A stretch of DNA of 59,116 bases from assembly GCA_016875095.1 (NCBI GenBank), contig VGSG01000015.1, positions 1-59,116 on the forward strand, read 5' to 3'. The position numbers were made by a program, and so were the translations under genes. The notes beneath the pieces are model-generated. The model was given only the letters and a program-made list of their open reading frames with translations. It searched no databases and was not told the origin of the DNA. This document shows, piece after piece, positions 4,093 through 24,534 of this stretch. The number at the start of each line of letters is the position of its first letter. Position 1 is the stretch's first letter. The DNA is from Deltaproteobacteria bacterium (GTDB taxonomy: Bacteria > Desulfobacterota > Desulfomonilia > Desulfomonilales > Desulfomonilaceae).

Positions 4093-5313
4093 CTATTTCT
4101 TTGCTTTCATCATGAGATGCAGGTGGGACACGGCCGCGCGTGCGAAGGCCTCGTCATTGATGTGGGCATCTACCTCGACCACATCGATGTTTCCATCGAG
4201 CAACGATTTTAGCCTCGTGATGAATACCCTATTAGTGGTCGGTTCGTATAACGGACCGCCTTCAATATCCGCTTCCGACCAACCGCGGAGGGGAACAATG
4301 AATTTCGCCGGGCCTTTCGCACGGTTCAACTTCTCGGCGATGGTCCCCGCGAGAGACTGCATATCGTCTGCGCTGGTGCGAACTCCGGATCGAAAATCAT
4401 ACCAGAAGACTTTTCGGCCCTTCACACGCTCGGGCATGGTCTCCAGAGAATTGAACTCGAGCACGATACAATCAAGCCCACCCGGAACCACCACCTGAGG
4501 GATTCCTGCCCGCCCCGCGGCCTCCAAACGGCCCGGTCCGATTGCTCCGCAATAGCCGTTGTACATTTGATCCGAGAACTCGTGTAAGGCTAAATCAAGG
4601 ACTCCGCTAATAAGATTCTGATCGATGAGGTCCTCCATTGCCATGCCGCCGACACCGTTGGCATGAAACGGCGCCACTTCGTAACCCAGCTCTTCGAGCA
4701 TGGCCTTTACTCGCATGGCGCCTTCGGTTATGAACCCGAACGAAGTCAGCCCGATAATCGGCTTCTCCGACACGATTCGACCTTGATTCTTGGCCATGCC
4801 CGCGATCGCCGCGGCAGCGTTGGAAAGGATCTTCTTGCTGATAGGATTGAGCCCGAGAATGTCCACTACCGAATGCATGACAGCGATGTCCTTGGTCCCA
4901 ATCAGGTCGCTCATGTCGCGGGAGGCCACGGTGGAGACCATCAGCTTGGGGGTTCCAAGCGGGAGCGCTCGCATGATGCCCGCGCCGATGTGAGTGCCCG
5001 TGCCGCCCCCCACTGAAATGAGAGCTGAAAGCCGACCGCCTCGGTGAAGCTCGCGCACAAGCGAGGCCCCACCCAGGATCATGGTCTCCACAGCCTGACG
5101 CCGGTCCTTATTTTTCACTATGGTTTCAAGTGTTATGCCGGCCCTGGAAGCGATCTCGTCACGCGTGATGTCGGGAACGACGGTCGGAGGATGAAGCGTG
5201 CCCACATCCATAACAATCGCATCGCAGCCCATATTCTCAATGAGTCCTTTAAGATAACCGACCTCATCTCCCTTGGTATCCAGAGTTCCCACAATCACCA
5301 CGGTCGGGGGCAT
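4093..5313 (-). CDS. Tm-1-like ATP-binding domain protein (UPF0261), copy A
   Basis: A 406-residue cytoplasmic protein of the Tm-1-like/UPF0261 family, recognised by the N-terminal GTLDTKG motif, the Gly-rich SVGGGTGTHIGAG segment, MRALPLGTPKLMVST and the C-terminal GIPQVVVPGGLD and PLRGWSEAD motifs. The family is named after the N-terminal half of the tomato Tm-1 resistance protein; the bacterial function is unsettled. GAGAGGTGATC before the ATG at 5313 supports this start; the longer frame to 5481 would overlap the LysR gene. It follows the LysR gene by 49 bases in a likely operon, divergent from the aromatic carboxylation genes. A second, divergent copy lies at 14174-15403. This copy keeps the central ALHEFSD segment usual for the family, so it is the more canonical of the two. 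Confidence 0.85.
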   Translation of the reverse strand: MPPTVVIVGTLDTKGDEVGYLKGLIENMGCDAIVMDVGTLHPPTVVPDITRDEIASRAGITLETIVKNKDRRQAVETMILGGASLVRELHRGGRLSALISVGGGTGTHIGAGIMRALPLGTPKLMVSTVASRDMSDLIGTKDIAVMHSVVDILGLNPISKKILSNAAAAIAGMAKNQGRIVSEKPIIGLTSFGFITEGAMRVKAMLEELGYEVAPFHANGVGGMAMEDLIDQNLISGVLDLALHEFSDQMYNGYCGAIGPGRLEAAGRAGIPQVVVPGGLDCIVLEFNSLETMPERVKGRKVFWYDFRSGVRTSADDMQSLAGTIAEKLNRAKGPAKFIVPLRGWSEADIEGGPLYEPTTNRVFITRLKSLLDGNIDVVEVDAHINDEAFARAAVSHLHLMMKAKK

Positions 5314-5362
5314 GATCACCTCTCTTGATGTTCGGTTTCCGGCGATCAAGTCCTTGGTCCTG

Positions 5363-6259
5363 CTAGGCCGGCAGCCCTTCGCGCCGGGATTTGGCGATCT
5401 TGATGAAGTATCGCATAGGCACGGACAGCGGTTCGTCCCGCCGCGTGAGGATATCCGCGTGGAAAGAGATATTGCCTTCACGCAGATTGATCTGCTTGAG
5501 TATCCCAGCGGCCAGTTCCTGCTCTATCTCGTGAGAGAGAATGAAGGACACACCCATGCGCAGCTCAATGTACGCCAGGATAAAGCTCAGGCTCTCCGAC
5601 TCCACCAGCACGGAGGGTTTTACGTCAAACTGGTTCAGTTTGCGGAGGATTGCGTCGCGTGAACCCGAACCGTGCTCCCGAATGATGAGCGATTCACCGC
5701 TCAGGTCGTTAATGGAAACGGTTTCGGACTGAGCGAGGGGATGGTCCGGCCGCGCCACCAGGATGAAATCGGCCCTGGCAAAGGGAATAGCCTTGAGCGT
5801 GGAATCATAGGTGGTGCGCTTCACCACCACTAGGTCTTCTTTGCGATTGCGAAGCCTTTGTATTAGGTCCGCGGAGTTCCCTTCACTCAAACGCACCTGC
5901 ACCTTGGGAAATTGGTGCTGAAATTCGGCCACCAGGTCCGGCATGACGGTTCGGGCATAGCCTTTGGTGCTACCGATTCTGAGGCGTTCTTGCGTGCCCT
6001 TGCGCTCCTTTGAAAGGAGCGTTTCGATCTGCCCCACACGGGCAAAAATGCGTTTGGTGAGCAGAAATGCCGTTTCGCCCATTTCAGTAAGTTTGTACTG
6101 GTTGGCTTCGCGATAAAACAGCTTGACCCCGCATTCTTCCTCAAATGTCTTGAGTTGCTGGGATACTGCGGGCTGTGTGACATTTAGGCGCTTAGCCGCC
6201 TCCTTCATGGAGCGGGAGAGGCAGAAGTGGTGGAAGATCTCCAGGTGCTTGAGGTTCAT
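5363..6259 (-). CDS. LysR-family transcriptional regulator
   Basis: A 298-residue regulator with an N-terminal winged helix-turn-helix (residues 1-60; the AKRLNVTQPAVSQQLKTFEE recognition segment is textbook LysR) and a C-terminal periplasmic-binding-protein-like effector domain (~90-295). The closest feel is the CysL/CbbR-type branch. The start at 6259 is chosen because LysR proteins begin a few residues before the helix-turn-helix; a longer reading frame to 6361 gives an atypical Tyr-rich extension. It is divergent from ubiX and the phenylphosphate synthase-like genes, the standard arrangement for a LysR activator of the neighbouring operon. A 17-base inverted repeat lies ~40 bases upstream of its start. 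The likely effector is an aromatic substrate or intermediate (inference). Confidence 0.92.
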   Translation of the reverse strand: MNLKHLEIFHHFCLSRSMKEAAKRLNVTQPAVSQQLKTFEEECGVKLFYREANQYKLTEMGETAFLLTKRIFARVGQIETLLSKERKGTQERLRIGSTKGYARTVMPDLVAEFQHQFPKVQVRLSEGNSADLIQRLRNRKEDLVVVKRTTYDSTLKAIPFARADFILVARPDHPLAQSETVSINDLSGESLIIREHGSGSRDAILRKLNQFDVKPSVLVESESLSFILAYIELRMGVSFILSHEIEQELAAGILKQINLREGNISFHADILTRRDEPLSVPMRYFIKIAKSRREGLPA

Positions 6260-6296
6260 GCCAAGTTCCCGGAATAGGAATACAGTGGTAGTATAG

Positions 6297-6313
6297 TATA
6301 AGGCGCGCTTATA
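6297..6313. promoter_or_regulatory. palindromic LysR operator candidate
   Basis: TATAAG and CTTATA form a perfect inverted repeat with a GCGCG centre, 38 bases upstream of the LysR start. It contains the A-N11-T / T-N11-A type geometry seen in LysR binding boxes. It lies in the divergent region, so it could serve autoregulation and activation of the ubiX-led operon. Confidence 0.5.
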
Positions 6314-6515
6314 TACGTATAACTTTTTCTGACTTGACTTGCCGACCCGATAACTCGACAATTTCTATTATTCAGGATACGGGTCGGAGATCCGTGCTCT
6401 CATTCTCAAGATCTCCTCGTTCAAGACCTTTCGTCTAATTAAGGACGCCTCTTGCTCCAGGGCCACGATGGTCGATTTTTTCCGGCTGGAGGACCGTCAA
6501 GATAAGAGGCCGATT

Positions 6516-6543: not shown

Positions 6544-6702
6544 CTTTCCCGAGGACGACCGTGATCCGTGTGAACGGAAGTGCTTTAGAGATGATCCCGA
6601 GAGGCGACATCCCATCGTCTACTCGGGGGTGTGGGGGTGTGTGCGAAATCCCGCGGGCAATCCGAATCGAGTCCGCCGCATGGCATGCAGAAAGGCTGTT
6701 TG

Positions 6703-7266
6703 GTGAAACGAATCGTCGTCGGTATCAGTGGCGCGAGCGGCATCATTTACGGCGTTCGACTGTTGGAAGTCCTCAAGGCCATACAGGACGTGGAGACGCA
6801 CGCGATCATCACTCGTGGAGCGATGCTTACCATGGAGCATGAAGCGTCCATCAAACCCGAGGCGGTGGAGCAGCTCGCGGATTGCGTGCACGCGCCGGAG
6901 AATCTGGCTGCGTCCGTTTCCAGCGGCTCCTTTCGGACCGAAGGGATGGTGGTTGCGCCCTGCTCCATGAAGACCCTGGCCATGATTGCGAATTCGATCA
7001 ACGAAAACCTTCTTGTTCGAGCGGCTGACGTGACGTTAAAGGAGCGGCGCAAGTTGGTGCTCATCGCGAGGGAGACCCCGCTTCATCTTGGCCATTTACG
7101 TCACATGATCACGGTCACGGAAATGGGAGGCGTCATCCTGCCCCCGGTTCCTTCGTTCTACCACCGGCCTCAGACCATTGAGGACATCGTCGATCAGACC
7201 ATCGGCAAGGCATTGGATCAGTTGGGGGTTCCCCACGAGCTTTTTGAGCGCTGGGCAGGAGGATGA
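6703..7266 (+). CDS. ubiX: UbiX-type flavin prenyltransferase
   Basis: A 187-residue flavoprotein of the UbiX/Pad1 family. It makes prenylated FMN from FMN and a dimethylallyl phosphate, the cofactor needed by UbiD-type (de)carboxylases. The sequence shows the N-terminal GISGASG phosphate/FMN loop, VVAPCSMKTLA, RETPLHLGHLRHM and the PPVPSFYHRP segment near the prenyl-phosphate site. The GTG at 6703 is preferred because AAAGG lies seven bases upstream and the protein then begins exactly like other UbiX proteins. An ATG at 6685 is possible. It is the first gene of the right-going cluster and overlaps the next gene by four bases, and a ubiD gene lies 3.7 kb downstream. So it most probably supplies cofactor to that carboxylase. 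Confidence 0.95.
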   Translation: MKRIVVGISGASGIIYGVRLLEVLKAIQDVETHAIITRGAMLTMEHEASIKPEAVEQLADCVHAPENLAASVSSGSFRTEGMVVAPCSMKTLAMIANSINENLLVRAADVTLKERRKLVLIARETPLHLGHLRHMITVTEMGGVILPPVPSFYHRPQTIEDIVDQTIGKALDQLGVPHELFERWAGG

Positions 7267-7775
7267 ACCGGGAAGAGCTGGAAAGAACCGTGATTGAGCA
7301 CATGGATTCTTTCACCACCATGACCCTGGCGTGCTGCACGGAGGAGAAGCCGTGGGCCGCGGCAGTGTTCTATGCGCGTCAGGGCTGGGACCTGATTTTC
7401 TTCTCCTCGCCTGCGTCTCTGCATTCCGGCATGTTCGCGGCAAACCCTCGTGCCGCCGCGACGATTCACGGCGATTACACCGGCTGGAAGGAAATCAAGG
7501 GACTCCAAATGGAAGGGACGGTCATACGGATTTCCGGCGCGAAGGCAAAGGCCAGGGCCACTGCAACGTACCTGAGCCGTTATCCGTTTGTGAAGGAATT
7601 CCTTTCCGATCCCGGGTCCATCTCTTCACTCCTGACGAAGAAGATGGCGAGCGTGGTTCTGTACATGTTTCGCCCGACCACCATACGGTACCTGAATAAC
7701 GAATCAGGCTTCGGCGCCAGATGGCAACTCCAAATCCGAAACGGACGAGTAATAGGCGACGCTGTGCCCGGTTAA
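7263..7775 (+). CDS. pyridoxamine 5'-phosphate oxidase-like (split beta-barrel) protein
   Basis: A 170-residue protein resembling the FMN-binding split beta-barrel superfamily (YhbP/UPF0306-like): an N-terminal helix, the strand FTTMTLACCTEEKPWAAAVF, and the later motif WKEIKGLQMEGTV. Members bind FMN, F420 or heme, and many are of unknown function. The ATG overlaps the ubiX stop (ATGA), so the two are translationally coupled; a role in flavin handling or delivery for the prenyl-FMN system is an inference from this coupling. True PdxH activity is unlikely because the PLP-binding C-terminal motif is absent. A 9-bp stem-loop follows it before the next gene. Confidence 0.75.
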   Translation: MNREELERTVIEHMDSFTTMTLACCTEEKPWAAAVFYARQGWDLIFFSSPASLHSGMFAANPRAAATIHGDYTGWKEIKGLQMEGTVIRISGAKAKARATATYLSRYPFVKEFLSDPGSISSLLTKKMASVVLYMFRPTTIRYLNNESGFGARWQLQIRNGRVIGDAVPG

Positions 7776-7793
7776 ATTTGCGCGCCCATGAGG

Positions 7794-7815
7794 GGAAGCG
7801 AACGGGTTCGCTTCC
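7794..7815 (+). other. intercistronic stem-loop upstream of ppsA-like gene
   Basis: Perfect 9-bp stem GGAAGCGAA / TTCGCTTCC with a CGGG loop, between the split-barrel gene and the phenylphosphate synthase-like alpha gene. No T-run follows, so it could be an mRNA processing or stabilising site rather than a terminator. Confidence 0.4.
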
Positions 7816-7890
7816 GGGATACATTCGAGTCGTTCAGGTATACCGGACCAACCGGTCCCAAGAACACGAAAGGGAGGAGGAGTAAGAGAG

Positions 7891-9723
7891 ATGGCCGAAT
7901 TGAAGTTCCCCAATCCACACCAAGCGGAACGCATCCCAGGAACCGAGGGCTGGGAGCGGATGTACCCCTATCACTATCAATTCAGCACGGACGATCCGAC
8001 GCGGGCCAAGTACGAAGAGAACATGTTCTGGTTCTACGATGGGCTCCACTATCCCGAACCAATGTATCCCTTCGACATCATTTGGGACGAAGCTTGGTTT
8101 CTCGCCTTGTCTCAGTTCAACACCCGCATCTTCATTGTCCCGCCTGCGCTGGGCATCGATCATCGCATCCACAACGGCTACATCTACATAACTCCACTGC
8201 CGGTGCCCAATCCGGAAGACATTCCCAAACGCGTCGAACTATTCATGAAACGAGCAGGCTACTACTACCAGAACTGGGATCGGTTGCACGACCAGTGGGA
8301 AGAGAAGATGAAGAACCTCATCAAGGAGCTGGTGGACTGCGAGATCCCTGTGTTGCCTGAGATGGAAGACGAATCGGTGGTAACCGAGGGCATTGGTATC
8401 TCTACCGGCTACAAGCTGCTCAACGCGTACGACAAGCTAATCGATTTGGGCATCAAATGCTGGCAGTACCACTTTGAATTTCTAAACCTGGGCTATGCGG
8501 CCTATGTAGTCTTCGTGGACTTCTGCCAGAAGGCCTTTCCGGACATCCCCTTGCAGCGGATTACCCAGATGGTGGGCGGCATTGACGTCATCATCTATCG
8601 GCCTGACGAGGAGCTCAAGAAGCTGGCCAAGATGGCCGTGGAACTGGGTGTGGACGACGTGGCCATGAGTGGGAACGCCGCAAGCGTGCTCAAGGCTATG
8701 GAAGGGACGGCAAACGGCAAGAAATGGCTCCAGGCTTTCAATGGCGCTCGTGACCCATGGTTCCATGTGTCCACCGGCACAGGCTGGTATCACCACGACA
8801 GGTCATGGAACGATGATTTGGACATCCCGCTGGACGCCATGCGGATCTACATTGAAAAGGTCCGCAAGGGGGAGAATATCTCTCGACCCACCCAAAAGGT
8901 GATCGAAGAGCGGGAAAAGCTCGCCTCCGAATATCGAGCCCTACTTAAGACGGACCAGGACCGGGCCACGTTCGATCAGATGCTCGGCACTTCTCGCACG
9001 GTCTTCCCCTACGTGGAGAACCACCTGTTTTATGTGGAGCATTGGTTCCACAGCATCTTCTGGAACAAGATGCGCGAAGTGGCCGCGATCCTTGTGGACC
9101 ATAAGTTCATCAAGGACGTGGAAGACGTCTGGTACCTCAAGCGGTCGGAAATCAAAGACGCTCTTTGGGATCTGGTCACGGCCTGGGCCACTGGGTGTAA
9201 CGCCCGCGGGCCCTTGATCTGGCCCAAGGAGATAGAGTGGCGCAAAGAGGTCATGAAGAAGTTCCGACAATGGACCCCACCCGACGCGATGGGCATGGTC
9301 CCGGAGACTATCACTGAACCCTTTACCATCGTCCTATGGGGCATAACCTCCGACTCTATGGCCCAGTGGGCCAAGCTCAAGGCTATTGCGGATTCGGATT
9401 TGAGCAAGATCGTGGGCTTCCCCGGTTCGCCGGGAACCGTCGAAGGCGTGGTCCGCGTATGCCGCACCGTCTCTGAGATCGGCCAACTGAGGGAGGGTGA
9501 AATCCTCGTGGCGCCCACCACATCACCGAGCTGGGCGCCCGCGTTCCAGAAAATCAAGGCTGCAATCACTGACGTGGGCGGGGTGATGTGTCACGCGGCG
9601 ATTGTGTGTCGTGAGTACGGCTTGCCCGCGGTGGTCGGGACCGGTTCGGCCACGTCCAGGTTGAAAACGGGCCAGCGGATCAAGGTCAACGGCGCCACCG
9701 GAGAAATCGACATCCTCGGATGA
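7891..9723 (+). CDS. ppsA: phenylphosphate synthase-like alpha subunit (phosphohistidine protein)
   Basis: A 610-residue (about 70 kDa) protein whose C-terminal ~100 residues are the swivelling phosphohistidine domain of PEP synthase-type enzymes. The motif GGVMCHAAIVCREYGLPAVV carries the phosphorylated His568, and the GSPGTVEGVVRV segment opens the domain. The long N-terminal part lacks the PEP/pyruvate TIM barrel of true PEP synthase. Size, order and the histidine position match protein 1 of Thauera aromatica phenylphosphate synthase, which transfers the beta-phosphate of ATP to phenol. The start is supported by GGGAGGAGGAG. The ATP-grasp subunit follows 25 bases later and a CBS third subunit is at 15466. 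The exact acceptor (phenol, catechol, another phenol) cannot be read from the sequence. The symbol follows phenylphosphate synthase usage, not PEP synthase. Confidence 0.85.
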   Translation: MAELKFPNPHQAERIPGTEGWERMYPYHYQFSTDDPTRAKYEENMFWFYDGLHYPEPMYPFDIIWDEAWFLALSQFNTRIFIVPPALGIDHRIHNGYIYITPLPVPNPEDIPKRVELFMKRAGYYYQNWDRLHDQWEEKMKNLIKELVDCEIPVLPEMEDESVVTEGIGISTGYKLLNAYDKLIDLGIKCWQYHFEFLNLGYAAYVVFVDFCQKAFPDIPLQRITQMVGGIDVIIYRPDEELKKLAKMAVELGVDDVAMSGNAASVLKAMEGTANGKKWLQAFNGARDPWFHVSTGTGWYHHDRSWNDDLDIPLDAMRIYIEKVRKGENISRPTQKVIEEREKLASEYRALLKTDQDRATFDQMLGTSRTVFPYVENHLFYVEHWFHSIFWNKMREVAAILVDHKFIKDVEDVWYLKRSEIKDALWDLVTAWATGCNARGPLIWPKEIEWRKEVMKKFRQWTPPDAMGMVPETITEPFTIVLWGITSDSMAQWAKLKAIADSDLSKIVGFPGSPGTVEGVVRVCRTVSEIGQLREGEILVAPTTSPSWAPAFQKIKAAITDVGGVMCHAAIVCREYGLPAVVGTGSATSRLKTGQRIKVNGATGEIDILG

Positions 9724-9748
9724 CACTCAGGCGTGTAAGGATTGTGTC

Positions 9749-10828
9749 ATGGACGCCTCCACGTATGTGCTTCCTTTCGAGGTGTGCGACCTGTCATTTG
9801 TCAACCGGGTGGGGGGCAAGTGCGCCAGCTTGGGTGAGCTGATCAAGGCCGGCATTCCCGTCCCGCCCGGTTTCGCCATCACGACGGAAGCGTACCAGAG
9901 TTTCCTGGATGACAACGGCCTAACCGACAAGGTTAACAAGCGGATGGATGGGCTGGAATTATCCTTGTTGGACGAGATCGACCGGGCCTCCCAAGATGTC
10001 CGAAACTGGATCGAAGCTGGAATCATACACGAGTACCTGGAAGACTATATAGCGGATCACTATCGGCTCCTCTCCCGGCGGACCAGGACTCCTGCGTTAC
10101 CCGTTGCGGTGCGGTCCTCGGCCACTGCCGAGGACCTTCCCGACGCAAGCTTCGCGGGCCAGCAGGAGACCTACCTATGGGTGCGCGGAGTGGACGATCT
10201 GCTGGATAGGGCCAGGAAATGTTGGTCCAGCCTGTTCACCCCGCGTGCGATCTCGTACCGGATCAAGATGGGATTCGACCACTCCAAAGTCCTGATCAGT
10301 GTGGCTGTGCAGAAAATGGTCCGATCCTTCACCGCGGGAGTCATGTTCACCCTGAACCCCGCAACAGGAGATGAAGCCACCATCGTGATCGACTCCAACT
10401 GGGGATTCGGCGAAAGCGTGGTTTCCGGTGAAGTGACCCCCGATCAGTTCCTCATAAACAAAATCACCATGGACGTTGTGAGAAAGACCGTCTCAGACAA
10501 GCATATCTACTACACCACGGATCCTGGGACCGATGAAGTGAAGAAACTGGAGGTGGATGAGGAGAGACGCAAGTCCCAGAGTATCCTGGACCAAGAGATT
10601 ATCGAGTTGGCGCGGCTGGGGAAGATTATCGAAAAACACTACGGCAAGCCCATGGATATCGAATGGGCTGTGGAGAAATCACTCCCGCACAAGGGCGAGA
10701 TTTACATAGTCCAGAGCCGGCCGGAAACAGTCTGGAGCCAGAAGGAGGTGAAACCGATCACTGAGGCGAAGGCCTCCGTGGTAGAACACATCGTTGCCGG
10801 GCTTATGCAAGGCAAGAAAATGAAGTGA
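9749..10828 (+). CDS. ppsB: phenylphosphate synthase-like beta subunit (ATP-grasp)
   Basis: A 359-residue (about 40 kDa) protein equal to the N-terminal nucleotide-binding part of PEP synthase. It shows VGGKCASLGEL near residue 23, the ATP-binding VRSSATAEDLPDASFAGQQE segment (~118-137), GVMFTLNP, and the C-terminal DIEWAVE and YIVQSRPET motifs. It would use ATP to phosphorylate the histidine of the alpha subunit. In true PEP synthase these parts are fused in one ~800-residue chain with a PEP domain; here they are split and the PEP domain is missing, as in phenylphosphate synthase. It starts 25 bases after ppsA and is followed by 184 bases before ubiD. Confidence 0.87.
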   Translation: MDASTYVLPFEVCDLSFVNRVGGKCASLGELIKAGIPVPPGFAITTEAYQSFLDDNGLTDKVNKRMDGLELSLLDEIDRASQDVRNWIEAGIIHEYLEDYIADHYRLLSRRTRTPALPVAVRSSATAEDLPDASFAGQQETYLWVRGVDDLLDRARKCWSSLFTPRAISYRIKMGFDHSKVLISVAVQKMVRSFTAGVMFTLNPATGDEATIVIDSNWGFGESVVSGEVTPDQFLINKITMDVVRKTVSDKHIYYTTDPGTDEVKKLEVDEERRKSQSILDQEIIELARLGKIIEKHYGKPMDIEWAVEKSLPHKGEIYIVQSRPETVWSQKEVKPITEAKASVVEHIVAGLMQGKKMK

Positions 10829-11012
10829 GCCGTTTTTCCGAGCACGTGTCCGTATCCACGCTTGTTGCTTGAACGAGGACTTGATCTGCGACCAAGGGCC
10901 GAGGCTTCGCGATTGCCGCAGCCTTATTATTCAAGCGCGTCTCGAGCGCCACGAACCCGCCGGCGATCGGAATTGACCGCCGAGAAAAGCGATTCATTGA
11001 GGAGATGAAAGT

Positions 11013-12452
11013 ATGAAAGAACTGCGCGACTTCATCAACAAATGCGAACAAGAAGGTGAACTGCTCCGTATCAAGACCGAGGTTGACTGGAACTTAGAAC
11101 TCTCCCATGTCGCCAAGCTCAACGAAGAGCGCAAAGGCCCGGCCCTGCTCTTCGAGAACGTGAAAGGTTACGATATCCCGGTGCTTACCAGCGCCTTCAC
11201 CACGGCCAGGCGTCTGGCCATCGGGCTAAACATGCCTCTGAATTACACAATGTGCGATATGGCCCGGGAATGGATGGAACTGACCACCAAACAGCTCGTC
11301 AAGCCCAAGGTGGTCGATTCCGGCCCGGTCTGCGAAATGGTGATCGAAGGCAAGGACGTGGATATACTTTCTCTTCCCGTCCCGTTCTTCTATCCCCTGG
11401 ATGGCGGTCGGTTTGTGGGAACCGCGGTGTACCTGGTGAGTGAAGACAAAGAAACGGGTTGGATCAACCTGGGGACGTATCGCATGCAGATCCATGACCG
11501 CAATCATTGCGGCATTCAGATCATCAAAGGAAAGCACGCGGATTTCCATTTCAACCAACACAAAAAAGACGGCACCAAGATGCCCGCAGCGGCTGTCATC
11601 GGCGCGGACTCGGTCCATTTCCTTGTCTCCTCCACACTGGTCTCTGCGCAAGTAGATGAGTACGACATCATCAGCACGCTGCGAGGAGAGCCCTGCGAAG
11701 TATTCAAGAGCGACCTGACCGGTCTGCTTCTTCCCGCGCACGCGGAGATTATCCTGGAGGGCTTTGTCGATCCGAACGATCTGCGGGAAGAGGGGCCGTT
11801 CGGTGAATACACGGGGTACTATTCGGGCGCCAAAGGGGAAGAGTGGCCCAAACAGGTGCTGCGCATAGAGAGGATCTTGCGACGCAAGAAACCGATATTC
11901 TGGGCAACCACGGTGGGCAAGCCGATCACCGACACCCACATGATTCAGTCGCTCAATCGAACCGCTACCCTGTGGACGGACCTGGAAAACATGAAAGTGC
12001 CGGGGATCAAGTCGGTCTACATCCCGGCTGAATCGACAGGCCGGTTCTGGGCCATCGTTTCTGTGCAGCAGAAATATCCCGGGCACGCAAACCATGTGGG
12101 GAACGCTGTTGTTGCCACTACCACCGGCCACTACGGGCTGAAGGGCGTGATCGTGGTGGACCATGACATCCCCGCGGACGACTGGGACCGGGTCATGTGG
12201 GCGCTCTCCGTCCGGTACGACCCCGCGCGAGACACCCAGATCATCTATCGAGGCCGATCCACGCCTCTTGATCCCGCGCTCCCGATCGAGGCTCGGGAGA
12301 TTGTCTCACGAGTGATCATGGACGCGTGCACGCCGTACGAATGGAAGCGCAAGCCGCAAGAGATCTTCCTGGATGAGGCGATGAAGGAGAAGGTCCTCTC
12401 CAAATGGAATGAATACGGCTTTGGTGACTGGAGCGCGTCGATCTGCAAGTAG
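11013..12452 (+). CDS. UbiD-family prenyl-FMN (de)carboxylase, phenylphosphate carboxylase-like
   Basis: A 479-residue UbiD-family enzyme. These use prenyl-FMN to add or remove CO2 on aromatic or conjugated acids. The catalytic elements are present: NLGTYRMQIHDRN with the active Arg (~157), the Glu of IILEG (~249) and EGPFGEYTGYY (~260-270). The N-terminus MKELRDFI and family length are typical. TGAGGAG ten bases upstream fits the start. Its position between the phenylphosphate synthase-like genes and an aryl-acid ligase, with ubiX in the same direction, suggests carboxylation of an aryl phosphate to a hydroxybenzoate. The known Thauera phenylphosphate carboxylase has two UbiD-like subunits plus small and phosphatase subunits; only this one UbiD is present here, so a simpler enzyme or a different substrate is possible. 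Confidence 0.93.
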   Translation: MKELRDFINKCEQEGELLRIKTEVDWNLELSHVAKLNEERKGPALLFENVKGYDIPVLTSAFTTARRLAIGLNMPLNYTMCDMAREWMELTTKQLVKPKVVDSGPVCEMVIEGKDVDILSLPVPFFYPLDGGRFVGTAVYLVSEDKETGWINLGTYRMQIHDRNHCGIQIIKGKHADFHFNQHKKDGTKMPAAAVIGADSVHFLVSSTLVSAQVDEYDIISTLRGEPCEVFKSDLTGLLLPAHAEIILEGFVDPNDLREEGPFGEYTGYYSGAKGEEWPKQVLRIERILRRKKPIFWATTVGKPITDTHMIQSLNRTATLWTDLENMKVPGIKSVYIPAESTGRFWAIVSVQQKYPGHANHVGNAVVATTTGHYGLKGVIVVDHDIPADDWDRVMWALSVRYDPARDTQIIYRGRSTPLDPALPIEAREIVSRVIMDACTPYEWKRKPQEIFLDEAMKEKVLSKWNEYGFGDWSASICK

Positions 12453-12515
12453 CTTCACCAAGCCGATCGAAGGGCCATCAAAGCGGAGGAGCTCTCCACG
12501 GAGGAATGCAGTCTT

Positions 12516-14174
12516 ATGAGACCGATCCGATACACAGACGCGATCATCGAAGAATTCAAGGCTGAAGGATACTGGACCGACGAGGTGTTCACCGATTTCT
12601 GGCTGAAGAACGCCAAAGAGCGCCCTAACAGAGAGGCTCTGGTCGATTCCACCTTGCGTGTCACCTGGGGCGAGGCGGGCAAAATCATGGATCGTTTTGC
12701 CCTTGCTTGGACAGACCTGGGACTGGACAAGGACGACCGGGTGATTCTCCAGTCCCCCAACTGCGCGTACGGGTTCCTGGCGCGGGTGGCCTGCGAACGC
12801 GCGGGCCTTATCAACATCACGGTAATGCCGTACCTGCGCCATAAGGAACTGACGCACATCATCGAGAAGATAGATCCCCGGGCGATCATCATCCCGGGGA
12901 TCTATCGTAAGTTCAATTACCTGGAGATGGTGGAAGAGCTTAAGGCCGATCATCCAAACCTGAAGTTCGCCTTCCTGCTGGACGAAACCATCCCCGGGCC
13001 TTATCCGCCGAATACCTATTCCCTTATGGCCATAGCGAGGGAGCCCTGGGAAGAAAAGAAAGACCCTTCCGTCCTGGCGGAAAGAAAATTCCATCCTACC
13101 ATGGATGTGGGAGCGCTCACCAGCACCAGCGGCACCACCGGGGTTCCCAAGATCGTGGAATGGCCCCTCGCTCCGAGGCTGATGACCTCAAAATGTCGCG
13201 TGGACATATGGAAGCTCACGGGTGAAGACGTGACTATGGCGGTCGCGCCTTTTGCGGGGGGCGCGGCCGGGACACTCACGTACTTCGCCGCGCCGCTGGT
13301 TGGGGCCAAGATCGTGCTGCTGGAAGAGTTCACGCCGGAGGGCGCGTTAGAGATGATCCAGAAAGAGAAGGTCACCTGCATCGGTGTGGTCCCGACCCAT
13401 ATTATCCGCATGTTGGAGTGCGACCTCCCGAAGTACGATCTGACGTCGCTCCGATTCATCCGGTCCGCGGGAGGTTACCTGCCGCCGCAAGTGGCAATAG
13501 AGGCTGAAGAGCGCCTGGGAGGCAGGATTACCTCAGACCTGGGGACGCAGGATGTGGGCTCTGTTTCCGGCTGCTATATAGACGACCCTGCGGACGTGCG
13601 GCGTCGGACCGTCGGCAAGCCGCTTGCGGGCAACAAGATCAAACTTCTGGACGAAAGCGGCAAGGAGGTACCGCCTGGTGAGCCGGGAATCCTCTATCTG
13701 AGAGGGCCGCATTCCCCCGCCGGCTATTGGAGAGACCCGGCAACGACAAAAGACGTCTTTGACGACAACAACTGGACCACCACCGGCGACATCGTGACAC
13801 TGGAAGAAGGCCGCATCTGGATCATGGGGAGGCAAAAGGACGTGATCATTCGTGGCGGCCAGAATATCTACCCGGCTGAAATCGAAGGGCTCCTCAACGA
13901 GCATCCCAAAGTGGCCTCAATTGCCATAGTGGCTATGCCCGATCGGGAATTCGTCGAACGCGCGTGCGCATACGTGGTGCCAAAGGCCGGGGAGACATTC
14001 ACCTTTGACGAGATGATCTCATTCCTGAAATCCAAGAAGCTCGCCATGTATAAGCTGCCGGAACGCCTGGAGATCATCGCGGCGATGCCGACGGTGGGCG
14101 ACTCGGGGAAAATCGACAAGAAGGTCCTGAAGAAACAGATTGAAGACAAGGTTGCGGCCGAAGGTAAAGCTTAA
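12516..14174 (+). CDS. aryl-acid AMP/CoA ligase (DhbE-like ANL superfamily)
   Basis: A 552-residue adenylate-forming enzyme. It has the P-loop STSGTTGVPK (~203-212), the TTGDIV hinge region motif, GGQNIYPAEIEG and the C-terminal catalytic Lys in DSGKIDKK. The N-terminus (EGYWTDEVFTDFW, then PNREALVD) resembles 2,3-dihydroxybenzoate-AMP ligases more than benzoate-CoA ligases. It could activate the hydroxy- or dihydroxybenzoate made by the UbiD enzyme as an acyl-CoA. No carrier protein or siderophore genes are near, so a catabolic CoA ligase role is favoured (inference). The start follows GGAGGAA; the stop overlaps the next start as TAATG, indicating coupling to the second Tm-1-like gene. Confidence 0.85.
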   Translation: MRPIRYTDAIIEEFKAEGYWTDEVFTDFWLKNAKERPNREALVDSTLRVTWGEAGKIMDRFALAWTDLGLDKDDRVILQSPNCAYGFLARVACERAGLINITVMPYLRHKELTHIIEKIDPRAIIIPGIYRKFNYLEMVEELKADHPNLKFAFLLDETIPGPYPPNTYSLMAIAREPWEEKKDPSVLAERKFHPTMDVGALTSTSGTTGVPKIVEWPLAPRLMTSKCRVDIWKLTGEDVTMAVAPFAGGAAGTLTYFAAPLVGAKIVLLEEFTPEGALEMIQKEKVTCIGVVPTHIIRMLECDLPKYDLTSLRFIRSAGGYLPPQVAIEAEERLGGRITSDLGTQDVGSVSGCYIDDPADVRRRTVGKPLAGNKIKLLDESGKEVPPGEPGILYLRGPHSPAGYWRDPATTKDVFDDNNWTTTGDIVTLEEGRIWIMGRQKDVIIRGGQNIYPAEIEGLLNEHPKVASIAIVAMPDREFVERACAYVVPKAGETFTFDEMISFLKSKKLAMYKLPERLEIIAAMPTVGDSGKIDKKVLKKQIEDKVAAEGKA

Positions 14175-15403
14175 TGGAGCGAGTTATTCTGCTCCTTTCC
14201 ACGCTCGACACAAAGGGGCCTGAAACCCTCTTCTTGCGGGAGAGTATCCGGCAACGGGGCGGAGTTCCGCTCATACTTGATATGAGCATGTCCGGGGAAA
14301 CAGCAGGAGCTGACATATCTTCGGCGGATGTGGCCCGGGCCGCGGGCGTGAACATTGAGGAGATCCGTCAATCCCGAGAACGTAAGCGCATTACCCGCAC
14401 GATGATTCACGGCGCGATCAAGTTGACCCGCGATCTGCTCGATTCGGGCCGATTGGCCGGAGTCATCGGTCTGGGAGGCTCCACCGGGAGCCTCATGGCC
14501 ACGGATGTTATGCGCGCGCTCCCGTTTGGGACGCCCAAACTCATGGTCTCGTCCACTGCGGCGCTTCCTGGCCTCGCCACGCGGTACATCGGAACCGGCG
14601 ACGTGGCGATCCTCCACACGGTGATTGAGATTGCAGGTCTTGTCGGACCTCTGCGAAACCTGCTGGAGCGCGCCGCAGCCGCAATCGTGGGCATGGCCCA
14701 GGTCGCGCCTCTTACGGTTGAATCGGCTCGGGAAGGGAATAAGCCTCTGGTGGCCATGTCAATGTTTGGACCTACCGAGCGGTGCGCTCATCATGTGCAA
14801 CAGCGGCTGGAGCAGCGCGGTTTCCAGGTGATCGGCTTTTCTGCGGCCGGAGTTTGCGATCGCGCGATGGAAGAGATGATCGGCATGGGGTTCTTCGATG
14901 GTGTGGTGGAATTGGCCCCCGGCGGCGCGGGGGAAGAGCTCCTGGGAGGAATGAGAGCCGCGGGACCGGACCGGCTCACGGCTGCGGGCAAGCTCGGCAT
15001 CCCCCAAGTGGTGGCTCCCGGGGGTGTAAACCTGACCAGCCCGCGGAAATCGCACTATAAGCCCGAGCACTATGAACGACGCAAATTCGATCTAGACGAG
15101 TTGCGAACTTTCCTGAGGGTTTCTGACGAAGAGATGGTGAAGGTGGCCGCATTGTTTGCCGAGAAACTCGGACGCTCGTCCGGACCGGTGGTTTTTTTGT
15201 TTCCCAAGCGGGGATGGTCCGCAGTGGATCCACCCGAAGGCCACATGTACGATGAAGCCCAGGACCGGCTTTTCCTGAACATTCTGCGAGAGAAGGCCGG
15301 TCCTAACGTCACGGTGTGCGAAGTAGACGCGAACCTGGAAGATGAAACGTTTATCCGGGCAGTGGAAGACTCGTGCGTTGAAATCTTCCCCCATCCCGGG
15401 TAA
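14174..15403 (+). CDS. Tm-1-like ATP-binding domain protein (UPF0261), copy B
   Basis: A 409-residue protein of the same UPF0261/Tm-1-like family as the gene at 4093. It has STLDTKGPE at the N-terminus, GLGGSTGSLMATDVMRALPF, GTPKLMVSS, GIPQVVAPGGVN and PKRGWSAVD. It is clearly diverged from copy A: the central LHEFSD-type segment is replaced by ELAPGGAGEEL, and the sequence after VAPGGVN differs. It is translationally coupled to the ligase gene (TAATG) and followed by the CBS gene 62 bases on, so it sits firmly inside the aromatic operon. The function is not known; an ATP-dependent or substrate-binding step in the pathway is conceivable. Nothing here shows an active site directly. Confidence 0.85.
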   Translation: MERVILLLSTLDTKGPETLFLRESIRQRGGVPLILDMSMSGETAGADISSADVARAAGVNIEEIRQSRERKRITRTMIHGAIKLTRDLLDSGRLAGVIGLGGSTGSLMATDVMRALPFGTPKLMVSSTAALPGLATRYIGTGDVAILHTVIEIAGLVGPLRNLLERAAAAIVGMAQVAPLTVESAREGNKPLVAMSMFGPTERCAHHVQQRLEQRGFQVIGFSAAGVCDRAMEEMIGMGFFDGVVELAPGGAGEELLGGMRAAGPDRLTAAGKLGIPQVVAPGGVNLTSPRKSHYKPEHYERRKFDLDELRTFLRVSDEEMVKVAALFAEKLGRSSGPVVFLFPKRGWSAVDPPEGHMYDEAQDRLFLNILREKAGPNVTVCEVDANLEDETFIRAVEDSCVEIFPHPG

Positions 15404-15465
15404 ATGGATGACTTCCCAAAGCTCATGGGTTTCGAAGACGCTTCCGTGAGTTCTTGGAGGCGAAC

Positions 15466-16110
15466 ATGTATGTGCGAAACTGGATGTTGCCCCAACAGTT
15501 CTCGATTTCCAGCGACGATCTGGCAATCGAGGCGGCCAGGATCATCAGAGAGAACAAGCTGAAAATGCTTCCGGTCGTGGACAAAGGGCGGCTGCGAGGC
15601 GTCGTGCATCGCAGGGACCTCAGCGAAGCGGCCATGAGCGTGAGTGACAGCGGTGACGTATGCGAAATCAATTACTTTTGTCGCAAGCTCAAAGTCAAAG
15701 ACGTCATGGTGCGTATGCCGGTGACTGTCAGCATCGATGACACCGTCGAGGATACCCTGATCAAGGGGAAGGCCATGATGATGAGCACCTTCCCTGTTAT
15801 GGACGGCGAAACGGTGGTGGGAGTGGTCTCTGACCGGGAGATCTTCGTTACCCTTTTCAAGCTCCTCGAGGCAGGACAGAGGCGGACCCGCATCACCCTT
15901 TCGGACGTCACGATTGAAAAAGGGACGCTTTCAGACATCCTGAGGATTGTCGACGAGTGCGACGCCAAGGCAAGATCCATTTTCACAGTCCCTGAAAAAA
16001 ATATTTATGAAAAAGCCCGCGTCCTACTTCGCGTGGAATCGGATAACCCCGAAGCGCTTGGGAGAGCCCTGGAAGCCAACGGTTACAAGATCATGGAACT
16101 CGTGAGATAG
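15466..16110 (+). CDS. ppsC: CBS-domain protein, phenylphosphate synthase-like third subunit
   Basis: A 214-residue (~24 kDa) protein with a tandem CBS pair: the first CBS about residues 5-60 (LPVVDKGRLRGVVHRRDL), the second ~80-135 (FPVMDGETVVGVVSDREI), then an ACT-like C-terminal tail. CBS pairs bind adenine nucleotides and tune enzyme activity. Thauera phenylphosphate synthase has a third, stimulating 24-kDa CBS subunit, and this gene has the right size and location to be its counterpart, although it is separated from ppsAB by ubiD, the ligase and a Tm-1-like gene. The ATG at 15466 has a strong TTGGAGG five bases upstream, so the in-frame TTG at 15454 is rejected. A hairpin follows ten bases after the stop and probably ends the operon. 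Confidence 0.8.
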   Translation: MYVRNWMLPQQFSISSDDLAIEAARIIRENKLKMLPVVDKGRLRGVVHRRDLSEAAMSVSDSGDVCEINYFCRKLKVKDVMVRMPVTVSIDDTVEDTLIKGKAMMMSTFPVMDGETVVGVVSDREIFVTLFKLLEAGQRRTRITLSDVTIEKGTLSDILRIVDECDAKARSIFTVPEKNIYEKARVLLRVESDNPEALGRALEANGYKIMELVR

Positions 16111-22051: not shown

Positions 22052-22092
22052 AGAATGCTCTGTCCTGGAGATCTAAGCCTGGAGTGATTCCC

Positions 22093-23046
22093 ATGACACC
22101 TCCTCGACCGATCCTGATCACGCTCACCGTGTGTGTTGCCTGCATTACGGCTACAGTTTCGTTTGCTTCGTCACAGGCGAAGGTTTCCATCCGTTTCGGA
22201 GCGCTGCCGGTGCTCCAAGCGCTGCCGCTCTATATCGCCCAGGAGCGAGGGTTGTTTACGAAAGCCGGCCTGGACGTCGATCTGATCCCGTTCAACACCG
22301 CCGCGGAAAAGGACATTGCGCTTTCAGCGGGCAAGATCGAAGGGTGCTTTGCGGACCTGGTCACTCCAATTGTGCTTCGTGCAAACGGCCGGAAGATCCT
22401 CATGGTCGCGACCACATATAGTTCACGCGGCGATCGACGCATGTTCGGTGTACTGGCCAAGCCCGGCTCGTCTTATCGCTTTCCCGCGGAGTTGCAGAAC
22501 GTCCCTATTGCGCTCGCATCGAATTCGATCGTGCATTACGTGACTGAAACCTTGCTCACGACCGCGGGCGTGCCCCGTGATGGAGTGGCTTCTCTAGAAT
22601 CCAAGAACATAGGCATGAGGATGCAAATGCTGCTCGCGGGGCACGTGGAAGCCGCGGCCTTGCCGGAACCCTTGGTATCGGCTGCGTTAGCCCAGGGGGC
22701 GACGCTCGTGGCGGATGACAGCGGCCTGGAAACGAGCCAGACCGTGCTGGTCTTTGCCGAGAGATTTCTCAAAGAGCAACCCGAAGCAGTGTCCAAGTTC
22801 CTCGCCGCGGTCGATGAAGCCGCGGCCATGATCAATGCGAAGCCTGATGAAGTCCGGGACGCAATGGTGCAGCACGTGCGGCTCCCTGCGCCGATGAAGG
22901 ACAAATATCCGACACCGCGTTTCCCGCGACTCAAGGCCCCGGATAAGGACGCGGCGCTCGCGGTCACCCGATGGCTTCGTGCCAGGGAAGTGATCCCTCG
23001 AACCGTTTCGTACGAAGAAGTGGTTGATGGCCGACTCATTCCATGA
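22093..23046 (+). CDS. ABC transporter substrate-binding protein (SsuA/TauA/NMT1-like)
   Basis: A 317-residue periplasmic protein with a clear signal peptide ending near FASSQA. The NMT1/THI5-like fold is indicated by ALPLYIAQERGLFTKAGLDVDLIPF and the later GKIEGCFADL segment, as in binding proteins for alkylsulfonates, nitrate, riboflavin or thiamin precursors. The ATG at 22093 is preferred (GGAG eight bases before). It overlaps the ATPase gene by ~20 bases. Substrate unknown; the downstream menG-menA genes give a hint that the cargo may relate to quinone metabolism, but this is speculative. Confidence 0.88.
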   Translation: MTPPRPILITLTVCVACITATVSFASSQAKVSIRFGALPVLQALPLYIAQERGLFTKAGLDVDLIPFNTAAEKDIALSAGKIEGCFADLVTPIVLRANGRKILMVATTYSSRGDRRMFGVLAKPGSSYRFPAELQNVPIALASNSIVHYVTETLLTTAGVPRDGVASLESKNIGMRMQMLLAGHVEAAALPEPLVSAALAQGATLVADDSGLETSQTVLVFAERFLKEQPEAVSKFLAAVDEAAAMINAKPDEVRDAMVQHVRLPAPMKDKYPTPRFPRLKAPDKDAALAVTRWLRAREVIPRTVSYEEVVDGRLIP

Positions 23047-23797
23047 CCTGATAGACTGCCGGGATGTGTCCAAGACTTACATCTCCGGGAACGGCCCGGT
23101 CTATGCGTTAGGGCCGACCACGTTCTCGGTGGAAAGCGGCGAGACTATTGCGCTGGTGGGCCCCTCCGGGTGCGGAAAAACCACGTTGCTGCTGCTCATG
23201 AGCGGATTGGAAAAACCGTCGAACGGATCGGTCCGGTTCAGGTCTCAGGAGCTGACTGCCCCACACCGCGAGATCGGGCTGGTCTTACAGCATTACGGCC
23301 TATTTCCGTGGAAGAGTGTGAAAGAGAACGTGCAGCTTGGGCTGCGGATACGCCGCGAAAGCCTCCACGGCAATCGCGTCGAAGAATTATTGTCTGAGTT
23401 GGAACTGAGCGATAAAGTCGAGTTCTACCCCCAACAGCTCTCCGGTGGGCAGCGGCAACGGGTGGCTCTCGCCAGGGCGCTGGCGCTCAACCCGAAGCTC
23501 TTGCTTCTTGACGAACCCTTCGCCGCTCTGGATACGCTGACCCGGGAGCGACTCCAGGACCTCGTCGCAGAGATGTGGCGCAAGCGACGATTCGGCATGG
23601 CGTTGGTCACGCACAACATCCAGGAGGCGGTTCGACTCGGTCGGCGTATTCTTGTCATGAGGGTGGAACCGGGCCACGGAGGACAAGTGGTGGCGGAGGT
23701 GGACAATCCATCCGCGTGTGAAGCGGCATACAGGGGCTCCGACGAATTCCACCGCAAAACCCTGATGGTGCGGGAGCGGCTGGAGTTGTGGGCATGA
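23027..23797 (+). CDS. ABC transporter ATP-binding protein (SsuB/TauB-like)
   Basis: A 256-residue ATPase with Walker A GPSGCGKTT, Q-loop LVLQHYGLFPW, signature LSGGQRQRVALARAL, Walker B LLLLDEPFAALD and the switch His in LVTHNIQEA. The LFPW context is typical of NitT/TauT-type importers. It starts inside the end of the binding-protein gene and its TGA overlaps the permease ATG (ATGA). Confidence 0.94.
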   Translation: MADSFHDLIDCRDVSKTYISGNGPVYALGPTTFSVESGETIALVGPSGCGKTTLLLLMSGLEKPSNGSVRFRSQELTAPHREIGLVLQHYGLFPWKSVKENVQLGLRIRRESLHGNRVEELLSELELSDKVEFYPQQLSGGQRQRVALARALALNPKLLLLDEPFAALDTLTRERLQDLVAEMWRKRRFGMALVTHNIQEAVRLGRRILVMRVEPGHGGQVVAEVDNPSACEAAYRGSDEFHRKTLMVRERLELWA

Positions 23798-24534
23798 AAT
23801 CCCGGCTGGCTTATCTTTGGGCTGTGGCGCTTCTCCTGGGCATGTGGGAGCTTGGAGCCCTGCTGGCGGGGGAGGTGGTCATCGCAGGACCAGGAACCGT
23901 GCTTGCGCGGCTCGTCGTTGAGGCTCAACAGGCGCGTTTTTGGCGTCATGTGGGCAGTTCGGCGTTTCGCGTGGCTGCCGCTCTCTGCATTTCGTTCGTA
24001 GCTGCGGTTCCGCTGGGACTTTTGTTGGGATCGAGCCGACGAGCCGATAAGATCGTCAGGCCTCTGATTTACCTGACCTATCCTATACCCAAGATCGTGC
24101 TCCTCCCGCTGGTCCTCCTAGTCTTTGGACTGGGCGATCCGGGCAAGATCGCAATGCTCTCCATCATTCTCTTCTTTCAGTTGCTCATTACCACTCGGGA
24201 CGCAGCCCGTGGCGTGGACCGCGAAGCAAAATACTCTCTATACAGTCTGGGTGGGACCAGACTCGATCTTTTTCGCCACGTGATCTGGCCGGCATGCTTG
24301 CCCGGGGTTTTCACAGCGCTCCGCATCGCCACCGGAACAGTGGTTGCGGTGCTCTTCTTTGTGGAATCGATCGGGACCCGTTACGGTATGGGGTTTTATA
24401 TCTTGGACGCCTGGGGAAGAGCCGATGTTCAGCAGATCTTCGTAGGCATGGTTGTTTTGGCGCTCCTGGGCGTGATCCTGTACGAGACATTCGACACGTT
24501 GGAGAGGCTCTTTTGCCGATGGAAACAGCTTTAG
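23794..24534 (+). CDS. ABC transporter permease (SsuC/TauC-like)
   Basis: A 246-residue inner-membrane permease with about six transmembrane helices and the cytoplasmic EAA loop (EAKYSLYSLGGTRLDLFRHVIWP region, ~150-170) that contacts the ATPase. The ATG overlaps the ATPase stop, and its own 3' end overlaps the menG start by 16 bases, so importer and quinone genes form one transcriptional and translational unit. Confidence 0.93.
   Translation: MKSRLAYLWAVALLLGMWELGALLAGEVVIAGPGTVLARLVVEAQQARFWRHVGSSAFRVAAALCISFVAAVPLGLLLGSSRRADKIVRPLIYLTYPIPKIVLLPLVLLVFGLGDPGKIAMLSIILFFQLLITTRDAARGVDREAKYSLYSLGGTRLDLFRHVIWPACLPGVFTALRIATGTVVAVLFFVESIGTRYGMGFYILDAWGRADVQQIFVGMVVLALLGVILYETFDTLERLFCRWKQL

Follow-up and report, generated by a model that had tools for sequence, protein, structure and literature searches.

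Phenylphosphate carboxylase in its textbook form consists of four proteins, and the locus described here raises the question whether a single UbiD protein could suffice. The locus is found on a stretch of 59,116 nucleotides from a Deltaproteobacteria bacterium of the family Desulfomonilaceae (assembly GCA_016875095.1, contig VGSG01000015.1), hereafter called the window, which represents contig C15 of a draft genome of 4.7 Mb and 202 contigs (G000), rated 100% complete and 2.6% contaminated. Eight co-directional genes spanning 6631–16110 encode UbiX, a PNPOx-like protein, PpsA, PpsB, UbiD, an AMP-forming ligase, a Tm-1-like protein and a CBS-domain protein. An earlier note, made from the sequence alone, had remarked on one UbiD and UbiX in this cluster and the lack of a HAD-type phosphatase, and had offered three explanations: a simpler enzyme, missing parts encoded elsewhere, or a different phosphorylated substrate. 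The simpler enzyme is the best supported of the three. We read the gene run as an operon for anaerobic phenol activation whose phenylphosphate carboxylase is minimal, an interpretation to which we assign a probability of about two in three; the cluster appears to be a naturally reduced form of the known pathway that places CO2 onto phenol.

The UbiD gene (11013–12452, + strand) is an open reading frame (ORF) with an ATG start, and its product of 479 amino acids (aa) contains all three UbiD domains (PF20695, PF01977 and PF20696). With 594 bits on TIGR02724 (cut-off 469) it belongs to the PpcB equivalog family. The protein scores 180 bits on the PpcA model TIGR02723 (cut-off 565) and also stays under the cut-off on two other models, with 232 bits for E. 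coli-type UbiD (cut-off 788) and 293 bits for the menaquinone type (cut-off 496). By UbiD identity, the nearest named records are from Desulfomonile (L071 and L072; 90% and 86%). Residues R157, E260 and E265 are assigned to the E–R–E triad on the basis of the accessible part of PMC8379154, alignments, and a motif read by eye. They are invariant in PpcA and in the three PpcB-type clades introduced below, while a third type of UbiD carries D in place of the first E. As the triad is intact in all three clades and in PpcA, loss of catalytic residues in PpcA or the solitary UbiDs is ruled out. The presence of ubiX in the same gene run provides circumstantial support for a dependence of the window UbiD on prenylated flavin mononucleotide (prFMN). 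It is highly improbable that the UbiD acts as a decarboxylase or serves another pathway, e.g. quinone synthesis, and merely lies beside the synthase cluster. The window UbiD is the sole UbiD found in the genome, UbiD reactions are reversible, and UbiE- and UbiA-like genes are located at 24294–26149; conversely, the PpcB equivalog score, the scores under cut-off on the E. coli-type and menaquinone models, and the presence of PpsA within 8 kb of UbiD in 40 of the 50 solitary loci (clades I and II, see below) all speak against such a role.

Searches of the window with reference proteins (tblastn, E ≤ 1e-4) revealed no HAD, PpcA or gamma gene. Genome-wide, PF01977 returned one UbiD, and a second UbiD elsewhere in the window genome is thereby rejected. 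PpcA was not found in this genome (TIGR02723, E ≤ 1e-120), and neither was gamma, for which the best E value on TIGR02725 was 0.22 and a clade III gamma query gave no match at E ≤ 1e-5. The sole delta-like HAD match (E ≤ 0.001) reached 147 bits on TIGR02726, compared to a cut-off of 282, and corresponds to the C-terminal KdsC domain of a 470 aa KdsA–KdsC fusion on contig C62 of G000 (locus L002, 592–2004), followed by genes that resemble lptCAB as read by eye. On KdsC models this domain scores 157 and 151, whereas the HAD of one clade III operon scores 143 and 124. On the delta model, however, the clade III operon HAD reaches 146 bits, no more than the 147 of the KdsC domain, and because the two score alike the delta score cannot rule out KdsC as delta; they would be set apart only by the fusion, the genomic place and the higher KdsC-model scores. 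Rejection of a dedicated delta elsewhere in the genome, where only KdsA–KdsC was found, is weakened for the same reason. Measured against the Thauera-type enzyme, neither alpha nor gamma was found in the window genome, and no dedicated HAD-type delta. The gene content described in the earlier note is thus borne out, and more strongly so at the level of the genome, which holds a sole UbiD and no match to alpha or gamma. No full ppcBCD set is present elsewhere. The notion that missing parts reside elsewhere fails for alpha and gamma, and leaves for delta the KdsA–KdsC fusion as a possible stand-in.

Across the phylum, 395 genomes were searched, with up to four candidates per genome scored in the initial search, and the neighbourhoods of the best matches plus extra loci yielded 76 PpcB-type UbiDs. 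The set of 65 genomes referred to below comprises those with long matches of about 480 bits or more; G231 and G238, which hold partial matches, were left out. Loci L073, L076 and L077 were dropped as copies of L035, L036 and L040. Seven of 130 rows were shorter than 300 aa and were left out of the tree (the alpha of L059, the alpha and third type of L112, the alpha and second third-type UbiD of L120, L122, and L123), the second third-type UbiD of L120, L122 and L123 being partial matches. Among the 123 rows retained, 76 fall into clades I–III, and the other 47 are 21 PpcA-type, 21 third-type, and 5 UbiDs outside these clades (L092_8745, L096_7121, L088_10313, L091_3591 and L092_11841). A more careful tree was calculated from 53 chosen rows.

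The PpcB-type UbiDs split into three clades, each supported in the 53-row tree, where the window UbiD is part of clade II, and clades II and III are sisters with a support of 98/99. In the quick tree, Azoarcus PpcB is sister to clade III (Shimodaira–Hasegawa-like approximate likelihood ratio test, SH-aLRT, 99), and the two together form the sister group of clade II, which includes the window UbiD. As Azoarcus PpcB is sister to clade III, we assign this clade to the Azoarcus type, and presumably to the Thauera type as well. The phylogeny called for by the earlier note therefore places the window UbiD inside the PpcB-type group, next to the Azoarcus type and apart from PpcA, and a position outside the PpcB group is rejected. 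A common origin of the solitary clades I and II as one clade is rejected by the approximately unbiased (AU) test at p = 0.001, with the groups named after the tree was seen rather than blind. No basic phosphate-binding residue gained in the solitary clades was found among the six positions that clades I and II share against clade III.

The clades differ in their neighbourhoods. Alpha, HAD or gamma genes within 8 kb were seen in 0/26 clade I and 0/24 clade II loci, whereas clade III loci hold HAD in 24/26, alpha in 24/26, and gamma in 22/26 cases. Two clade III loci are exceptions: at L111 the contig stops 680 bp past the gene, and PpcA is found on another contig of its genome (G337); L105 lacks partner genes despite more than 7 kb of sequence on either side, and its genome (G324) also holds a full operon (L110). 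Hidden Markov model (HMM) scores, taken for one or two clade III partners each, were 690 and 715 bits for PpcA (cut-off 565), 146 bits for the KdsC/PpcD-like HAD (cut-off 282), and 56 bits for the gamma-like protein (cut-off 136); with the latter two under cut-off, the delta and gamma genes of this phylum are called by position and similarity. Genome-wide, PpcA was detected in 25/25 genomes with a clade III UbiD (24 over cut-off) and in 0/40 without, and gamma in 24/25 and 0/40, respectively. A single UbiD is all that 11 of the 65 genomes with PpcB-type UbiDs contain (G000, G319, G111, G042, G266, G245, G103, G273, G010, G368 and G286), and nine of these eleven are rated at least 90% complete. 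A clade II cluster with Pps, UbiD, UbiX and ligase genes, and no Tm-1-like gene seen, also occurs in a record labelled 'uncultured Hippea sp.' (Campylobacterota; L079), possibly reflecting a transfer between phyla.

Both carboxylase types occur beside near-identical synthases. Within genus g146, G374 has a full clade III operon and G319 a lone clade II UbiD; their PpsA proteins share 94% and their PpsB proteins 90% identity, while the UbiDs of the two share only 55%. The lone UbiD is the only UbiD of G319, a genome rated 86% complete. Since nearly the same synthase is thus paired with either carboxylase in a single genus, the lone UbiD probably stands in for the four-subunit enzyme. Within the Desulfomonilaceae, the operon is shared by two types, the window type (window, L034 and L072) and another (L065–L067). 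UbiX, PpsA, PpsB, Tm-1-like and CBS proteins are 65–82% identical between these types, compared to 50–55% for UbiD and 60–64% for the ligase; within the window type, UbiD and ligase are 83–85% and 82–83% identical. The PNPOx-like gene changes fast (46–52% between types and 52–63% within) and was not found in L067. Eighteen genomes of the family were compared, ten of which are rated less than 90% complete: five carry the window-type UbiD, nine the other type, none both, and four neither. A different picture was obtained for the Syntrophorhabdaceae (L075 by name; L063 and L114 from family f55), where ligases of 93–94% and Tm-1-like proteins of 88–90% identity accompany UbiDs of either clade I or clade II that are 58–59% identical. 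Hence, UbiD and ligase are exchanged together in the Desulfomonilaceae but not in the Syntrophorhabdaceae, and joint exchange is rejected as a general rule. Mapped onto the PpsA tree, the carboxylase clade changes 15 times, the minimum possible being 2 and the mean for shuffled labels 21.3. The most straightforward interpretation is that one carboxylase type can take the place of another after the same synthase.

The recurrent neighbour of the lone UbiD is the Tm-1-like protein of family UPF0261, encoded in the window at 14174–15403 (+ strand; PF06792 and PF23189). A UPF0261 gene is located within 5 kb of the UbiD gene in 23/26 clade I, 20/24 clade II, and 1/26 clade III loci, and in 19/20, 11/11, and 0/14 when only loci with at least 5 kb on both flanks are counted. 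Within 8 kb, the numbers are 25, 20, and 6. Seven solitary loci were missed at 5 kb: L079 shows no such gene in 6.8 kb downstream, L088 and L091 have it at 5.8 kb and 5.1 kb, and the other four (L047, L049, L050 and L095) are truncated where their contigs end. The contrast is less marked at the genome level, with UPF0261 found in 39/40 genomes without a clade III UbiD, 19/25 with one, and 30/328 without a PpcB-type match. The family thus accompanies such aromatic-type gene sets generally, and what is specific is its position beside the lone UbiD. In seven loci (L040, L078, L118, L099, L070, L064 and L101; L040 and L064 each have one short flank) the Tm-1-like gene lies 0–137 bp from UbiD and no window-type ligase was seen within 8 kb, which argues that the Tm-1-like gene is not merely a ligase partner. 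By sequence, the best-matching solved structures are 9mpy (UPF0261) and plant Tm-1 (3wry and 3wrw). Tm-1 binds ATP. No link of Tm-1-like, UPF0261 or COG5441 proteins with phenol or UbiD was found in the open-access literature as covered by titles and partial abstracts.

These data bear on the possibility that the Tm-1-like protein functionally replaces missing subunits, most likely delta, by binding and removing phosphate or by activating phenylphosphate for UbiD. The pattern of 43/50 solitary versus 1/26 clade III loci within 5 kb would agree with such a role, as would its occurrence in both solitary clades, which are not sister groups, the seven loci where no window-type ligase was seen within 8 kb, and the sequence match to plant Tm-1 structures. 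However, UPF0261 genes in 19/25 full-operon genomes imply that the family has other uses, a ligase gene within 8 kb in 39/50 solitary loci means that the Tm-1-like protein may instead belong to the ligase reaction, HAD phosphatases are a family distinct from UPF0261, and at solitary L079 no such gene was seen in the 6.8 kb downstream. We therefore regard the replacement as possible but doubtful. The earlier suggestion of a Tm-1-like stand-in agrees with a clear positional pattern; any role of the protein as a subunit, like the activity of the lone UbiD, is inferred. The broader proposal, equally tentative, is that UPF0261 provides a subunit, catalytic or phosphate-handling, to a second and simpler kind of carboxylase made of one UbiD and one Tm-1-like protein, substituting for alpha, gamma and delta throughout the Desulfobacterota.

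For comparative purposes, the annotated ppcB of Azoarcus sp. KH32C on plasmid pAZKH (L132) was located by tblastn against plasmids. The order in Azoarcus is phosphoenolpyruvate (PEP)-utilizing enzyme, PEP/pyruvate-binding protein, CBS, ppcB, ppcD, ppcA, ppcG, UbiD and UbiX. Window PpsA is 64%, PpsB 55%, CBS protein 39%, and PpcB homologue 55% identical to the Azoarcus counterparts, and both loci share UbiX and an upstream PNPOx-like gene. In Azoarcus, unlike in the window, ppcB is accompanied by ppcD, ppcA, ppcG and an additional UbiD gene, and no Tm-1-like gene was found in the 25.4 kb stretch. Given these identities of the PpsA, PpsB and CBS proteins, the window has a phenol-type synthase without the four-subunit carboxylase.

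Two further systems are known from PMC6114531, PMC7500099 and PMC1924859. For G. metallireducens, known here by description, a phenol operon (Gmet_2100–2102, PMC1924859) with only a ppc-beta homologue (PMC6114531) is reported. Genome G184 very probably belongs to D. anilini DSM 4660. Two of its UbiDs, read from ATG starts, have masses of 52.24 and 51.922 kDa, which are the printed masses of Ppc-beta2 (02059) and 'Ppc-alpha' (03563) in PMC6114531; its betas from the ani and phe clusters share 52.0% identity, the printed value being 51.71% (PMC7500099); and the gene orders of L089 and L048 agree with the published phe and ani clusters. The inferred phenol-induced phe cluster (Ppc-beta2; L089) resembles the window in that one PpcB-type UbiD is followed by ligase, Tm-1-like and UbiX genes, with PpsA at the far side; in the window, the order UbiD–ligase–Tm-1 with UbiX and Pps nearby is the same, as counted in favour of the minimal carboxylase. 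Unlike the window, the phe UbiD belongs to clade I (51% to the window), its PpsA is 38% identical over the part in hand, the cluster holds genes for 4-hydroxybenzoyl-CoA reductase (Hcr), none of which were seen in the window, and the genome has five UbiDs. The inferred ani cluster (Ppc-beta, 03872; L048), which is aniline-induced (PMC7500099), shares with the window a single clade II UbiD (60%) with Tm-1-like and ligase genes; it differs in synthase alpha (26%) and ligase (39%), and UbiX was not seen in its 12.4 kb contig.

The inferred D. anilini 'alpha' (03563; L088, 4750–6147) scores 513 bits on TIGR02724 (cut-off 469) and 218 on TIGR02723 (cut-off 565), is beta-type by tree as well, and is 76% identical to Ppc-beta2. 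As PpcA and gamma were not found in G184 either, the published alpha is reassigned to the beta type, and D. anilini, as judged from these profiles, also appears to be devoid of alpha and gamma. Its delta is reported as a 3-deoxy-D-manno-octulosonate 8-phosphate (KDO-8-P) phosphatase that is transcribed, with no protein observed in phenol-grown cells. For this organism, recruitment from elsewhere in the genome has been put forward (PMC6114531), and the same might apply to the window genome, with another UbiD as alpha and a KdsC-type phosphatase as delta. The KdsC domain, with a delta-model score matching that of the clade III operon HAD, is in line with this idea. However, the window genome has no second UbiD to recruit, its KdsC domain is fused to KdsA and scores higher on KdsC models than the clade III HAD, and the proposed alpha of D. 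anilini is itself beta-type, leaving recruitment quite improbable.

A different substrate, i.e. another aryl phosphate or a phosphoramidate (derived from aniline, catechol or a cresol), with an enzyme differing accordingly, has somewhat more in its favour but is still unlikely. The window UbiD shares clade II with the inferred aniline-cluster beta of D. anilini, and UbiD and ligase diverge jointly between the Desulfomonilaceae types, as a change of product would look. Conversely, the synthase points to phenol, window PpsA being far closer to Azoarcus PpsA (64%) than to the aniline-type subunit (26%), and the near-identical Syntrophorhabdaceae ligases beside clade I and clade II UbiDs suggest one common product. 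Together with the 55% identity of PpsB to Azoarcus, these values disfavour the different phosphorylated substrate considered in the earlier note.

The synthase genes carry the corresponding domain set. PpsA (phenylphosphate synthase alpha; 7891–9723, + strand) contains the mobile domain of PEP-utilisers (PF00391) with catalytic His568, for which T. aromatica PpsA His569 is the printed counterpart, by residue numbers only (PMC7500099); the Azoarcus KH32C match is annotated as PEP-utilizing enzyme. PpsB (phenylphosphate synthase beta; 9749–10828, + strand) has an ATP-binding PPDK_N domain (PF01326, 401 bits), and the CBS-domain protein (PF00571; 15454–16110, + strand) is PpsC-like (phenylphosphate synthase gamma), its Azoarcus counterpart lying in the pps-ppc operon. 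In the proposed pathway, PpsA and PpsB with the CBS protein would phosphorylate phenol to phenylphosphate, PpsA acting via His568. The lone PpcB-type, prFMN-dependent UbiD, matured by UbiX (6631–7266, + strand; flavin prenyltransferase making prFMN; NF004685, 275 bits > 188; TIGR00421, 241 > 109) and probably a homo-oligomer, would be active without dedicated alpha, gamma or delta and convert phenylphosphate into 4-hydroxybenzoate. The AMP-forming acyl/aryl-CoA ligase (12516–14174, + strand; PF00501 and PF13193; 62% identity to the L089 ligase), probably a 4-hydroxybenzoate-CoA ligase, would form 4-hydroxybenzoyl-CoA, an Hcr-like enzyme encoded elsewhere would remove the hydroxyl group, and the resulting benzoyl-CoA would be degraded by the BamA route. 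Phosphate may be removed in the UbiD active site, by the Tm-1-like protein or, less likely, by KdsA–KdsC. An Hcr alpha-like protein on contig C3 reached 898 bits, under the cut-off of 995 (TIGR03194), and is 69% identical to the cluster-linked homologue of L036; BamA is encoded on C42 (555 bits > 464), and in the relative L072 Hcr genes directly follow the CBS gene. Four more Hcr/xanthine-dehydrogenase-like alpha subunits were observed on C9, C35, C52 and C16 of G000 (L080, L082, L083, L084 and L086), all under the TIGR03194 cut-off.

Several points weigh against the minimal carboxylase. The genome is a draft of 202 contigs, Hcr is encoded on a contig other than that of the operon, and the delta search, genome-wide for G000, covered the fetched loci in the other genomes; the near-equal delta-model scores of the KdsC domain and the clade III HAD belong here as well. 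Of the studied homologues that were compared, the window UbiD is closest to the aniline-cluster beta (60%) rather than to that of the phenol cluster (51%). Moreover, neither Ppc-beta (ani) nor Ppc-beta2 (phe) of D. anilini acted on phenylphosphoamidate by itself in vitro, activity being obtained only with both, in an assay with refolded proteins and FMN (PMC7500099), and phenylphosphate carboxylase activity could not be demonstrated in D. anilini extracts (PMC6114531).

Other genes of the locus include a PNPOx-like split-barrel protein (7263–7775, + strand; PF01243, 30.0 bits > 28.1) that overlaps the end of ubiX. A PNPOx-like gene follows ubiX in the window, L034, L065, L066 and L072, and a 36% homologue is found upstream of the Azoarcus pps-ppc operon. 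Near UbiX or UbiD in other loci, a PF21758 gene was observed and taken for LpdD-like, the Pfam match being checked on two. Both proteins could handle prFMN; LpdD is described as a prFMNH2 chaperone in the accessible part of PMC10865409. No LpdD-like (PF21758) chaperone was found in the window genome, a weak negative from a one-protein query without positive control. On the other strand, a LysR-type regulator gene (5363–6361, − strand; PF00126 and PF03466) is divergent from ubiX, and a second Tm-1-like (UPF0261) gene (4093–5481, − strand; PF06792/PF23189), with a true start probably inside the ORF, recurs in the Desulfomonilaceae loci L065, L066, L067 and L072. The region 22084–26149 holds NMT1-type ABC transporter genes, followed by the UbiE- and UbiA-like genes mentioned above.

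In summary, the window locus is an instance of a published arrangement, as single-beta clusters are described in the accessible parts of PMC6114531, PMC7500099 and PMC1924859; the earlier note had overlooked those of G. metallireducens and D. anilini. In 2018, PMC5946492 named PpsAB, PpcB and the UbiX-like PpcY as the core common to the Pps-Ppc operons compared; the term 'tm-1' is absent from its text, and solitary clades and whole-genome tests do not occur in the parts covered. Within the literature covered, what appears to be new is the lack of any match to alpha or gamma across the whole genome, the existence of two clades of solitary UbiDs, their association with Tm-1-like genes, the exchange of modules, and the beta-type nature of the published D. 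anilini alpha. Single-ppcB clusters had left the need for four subunits open, as the other UbiDs of D. anilini could be recruited; with no second UbiD found, the window genome provides a natural test of sufficiency. That one and the same synthase is paired with different types of carboxylase suggests a modular carboxylation step. A one-UbiD enzyme, if true, would ease expression and structure determination for biological CO2 fixation onto phenols, and the recurrent Tm-1-like neighbour gives a testable role for UPF0261. Should the doubtful two-protein carboxylase of UbiD and Tm-1-like protein prove true, this widespread uncharacterised family would gain a function, and the textbook four-subunit enzyme would be a derived elaboration of a simpler one.

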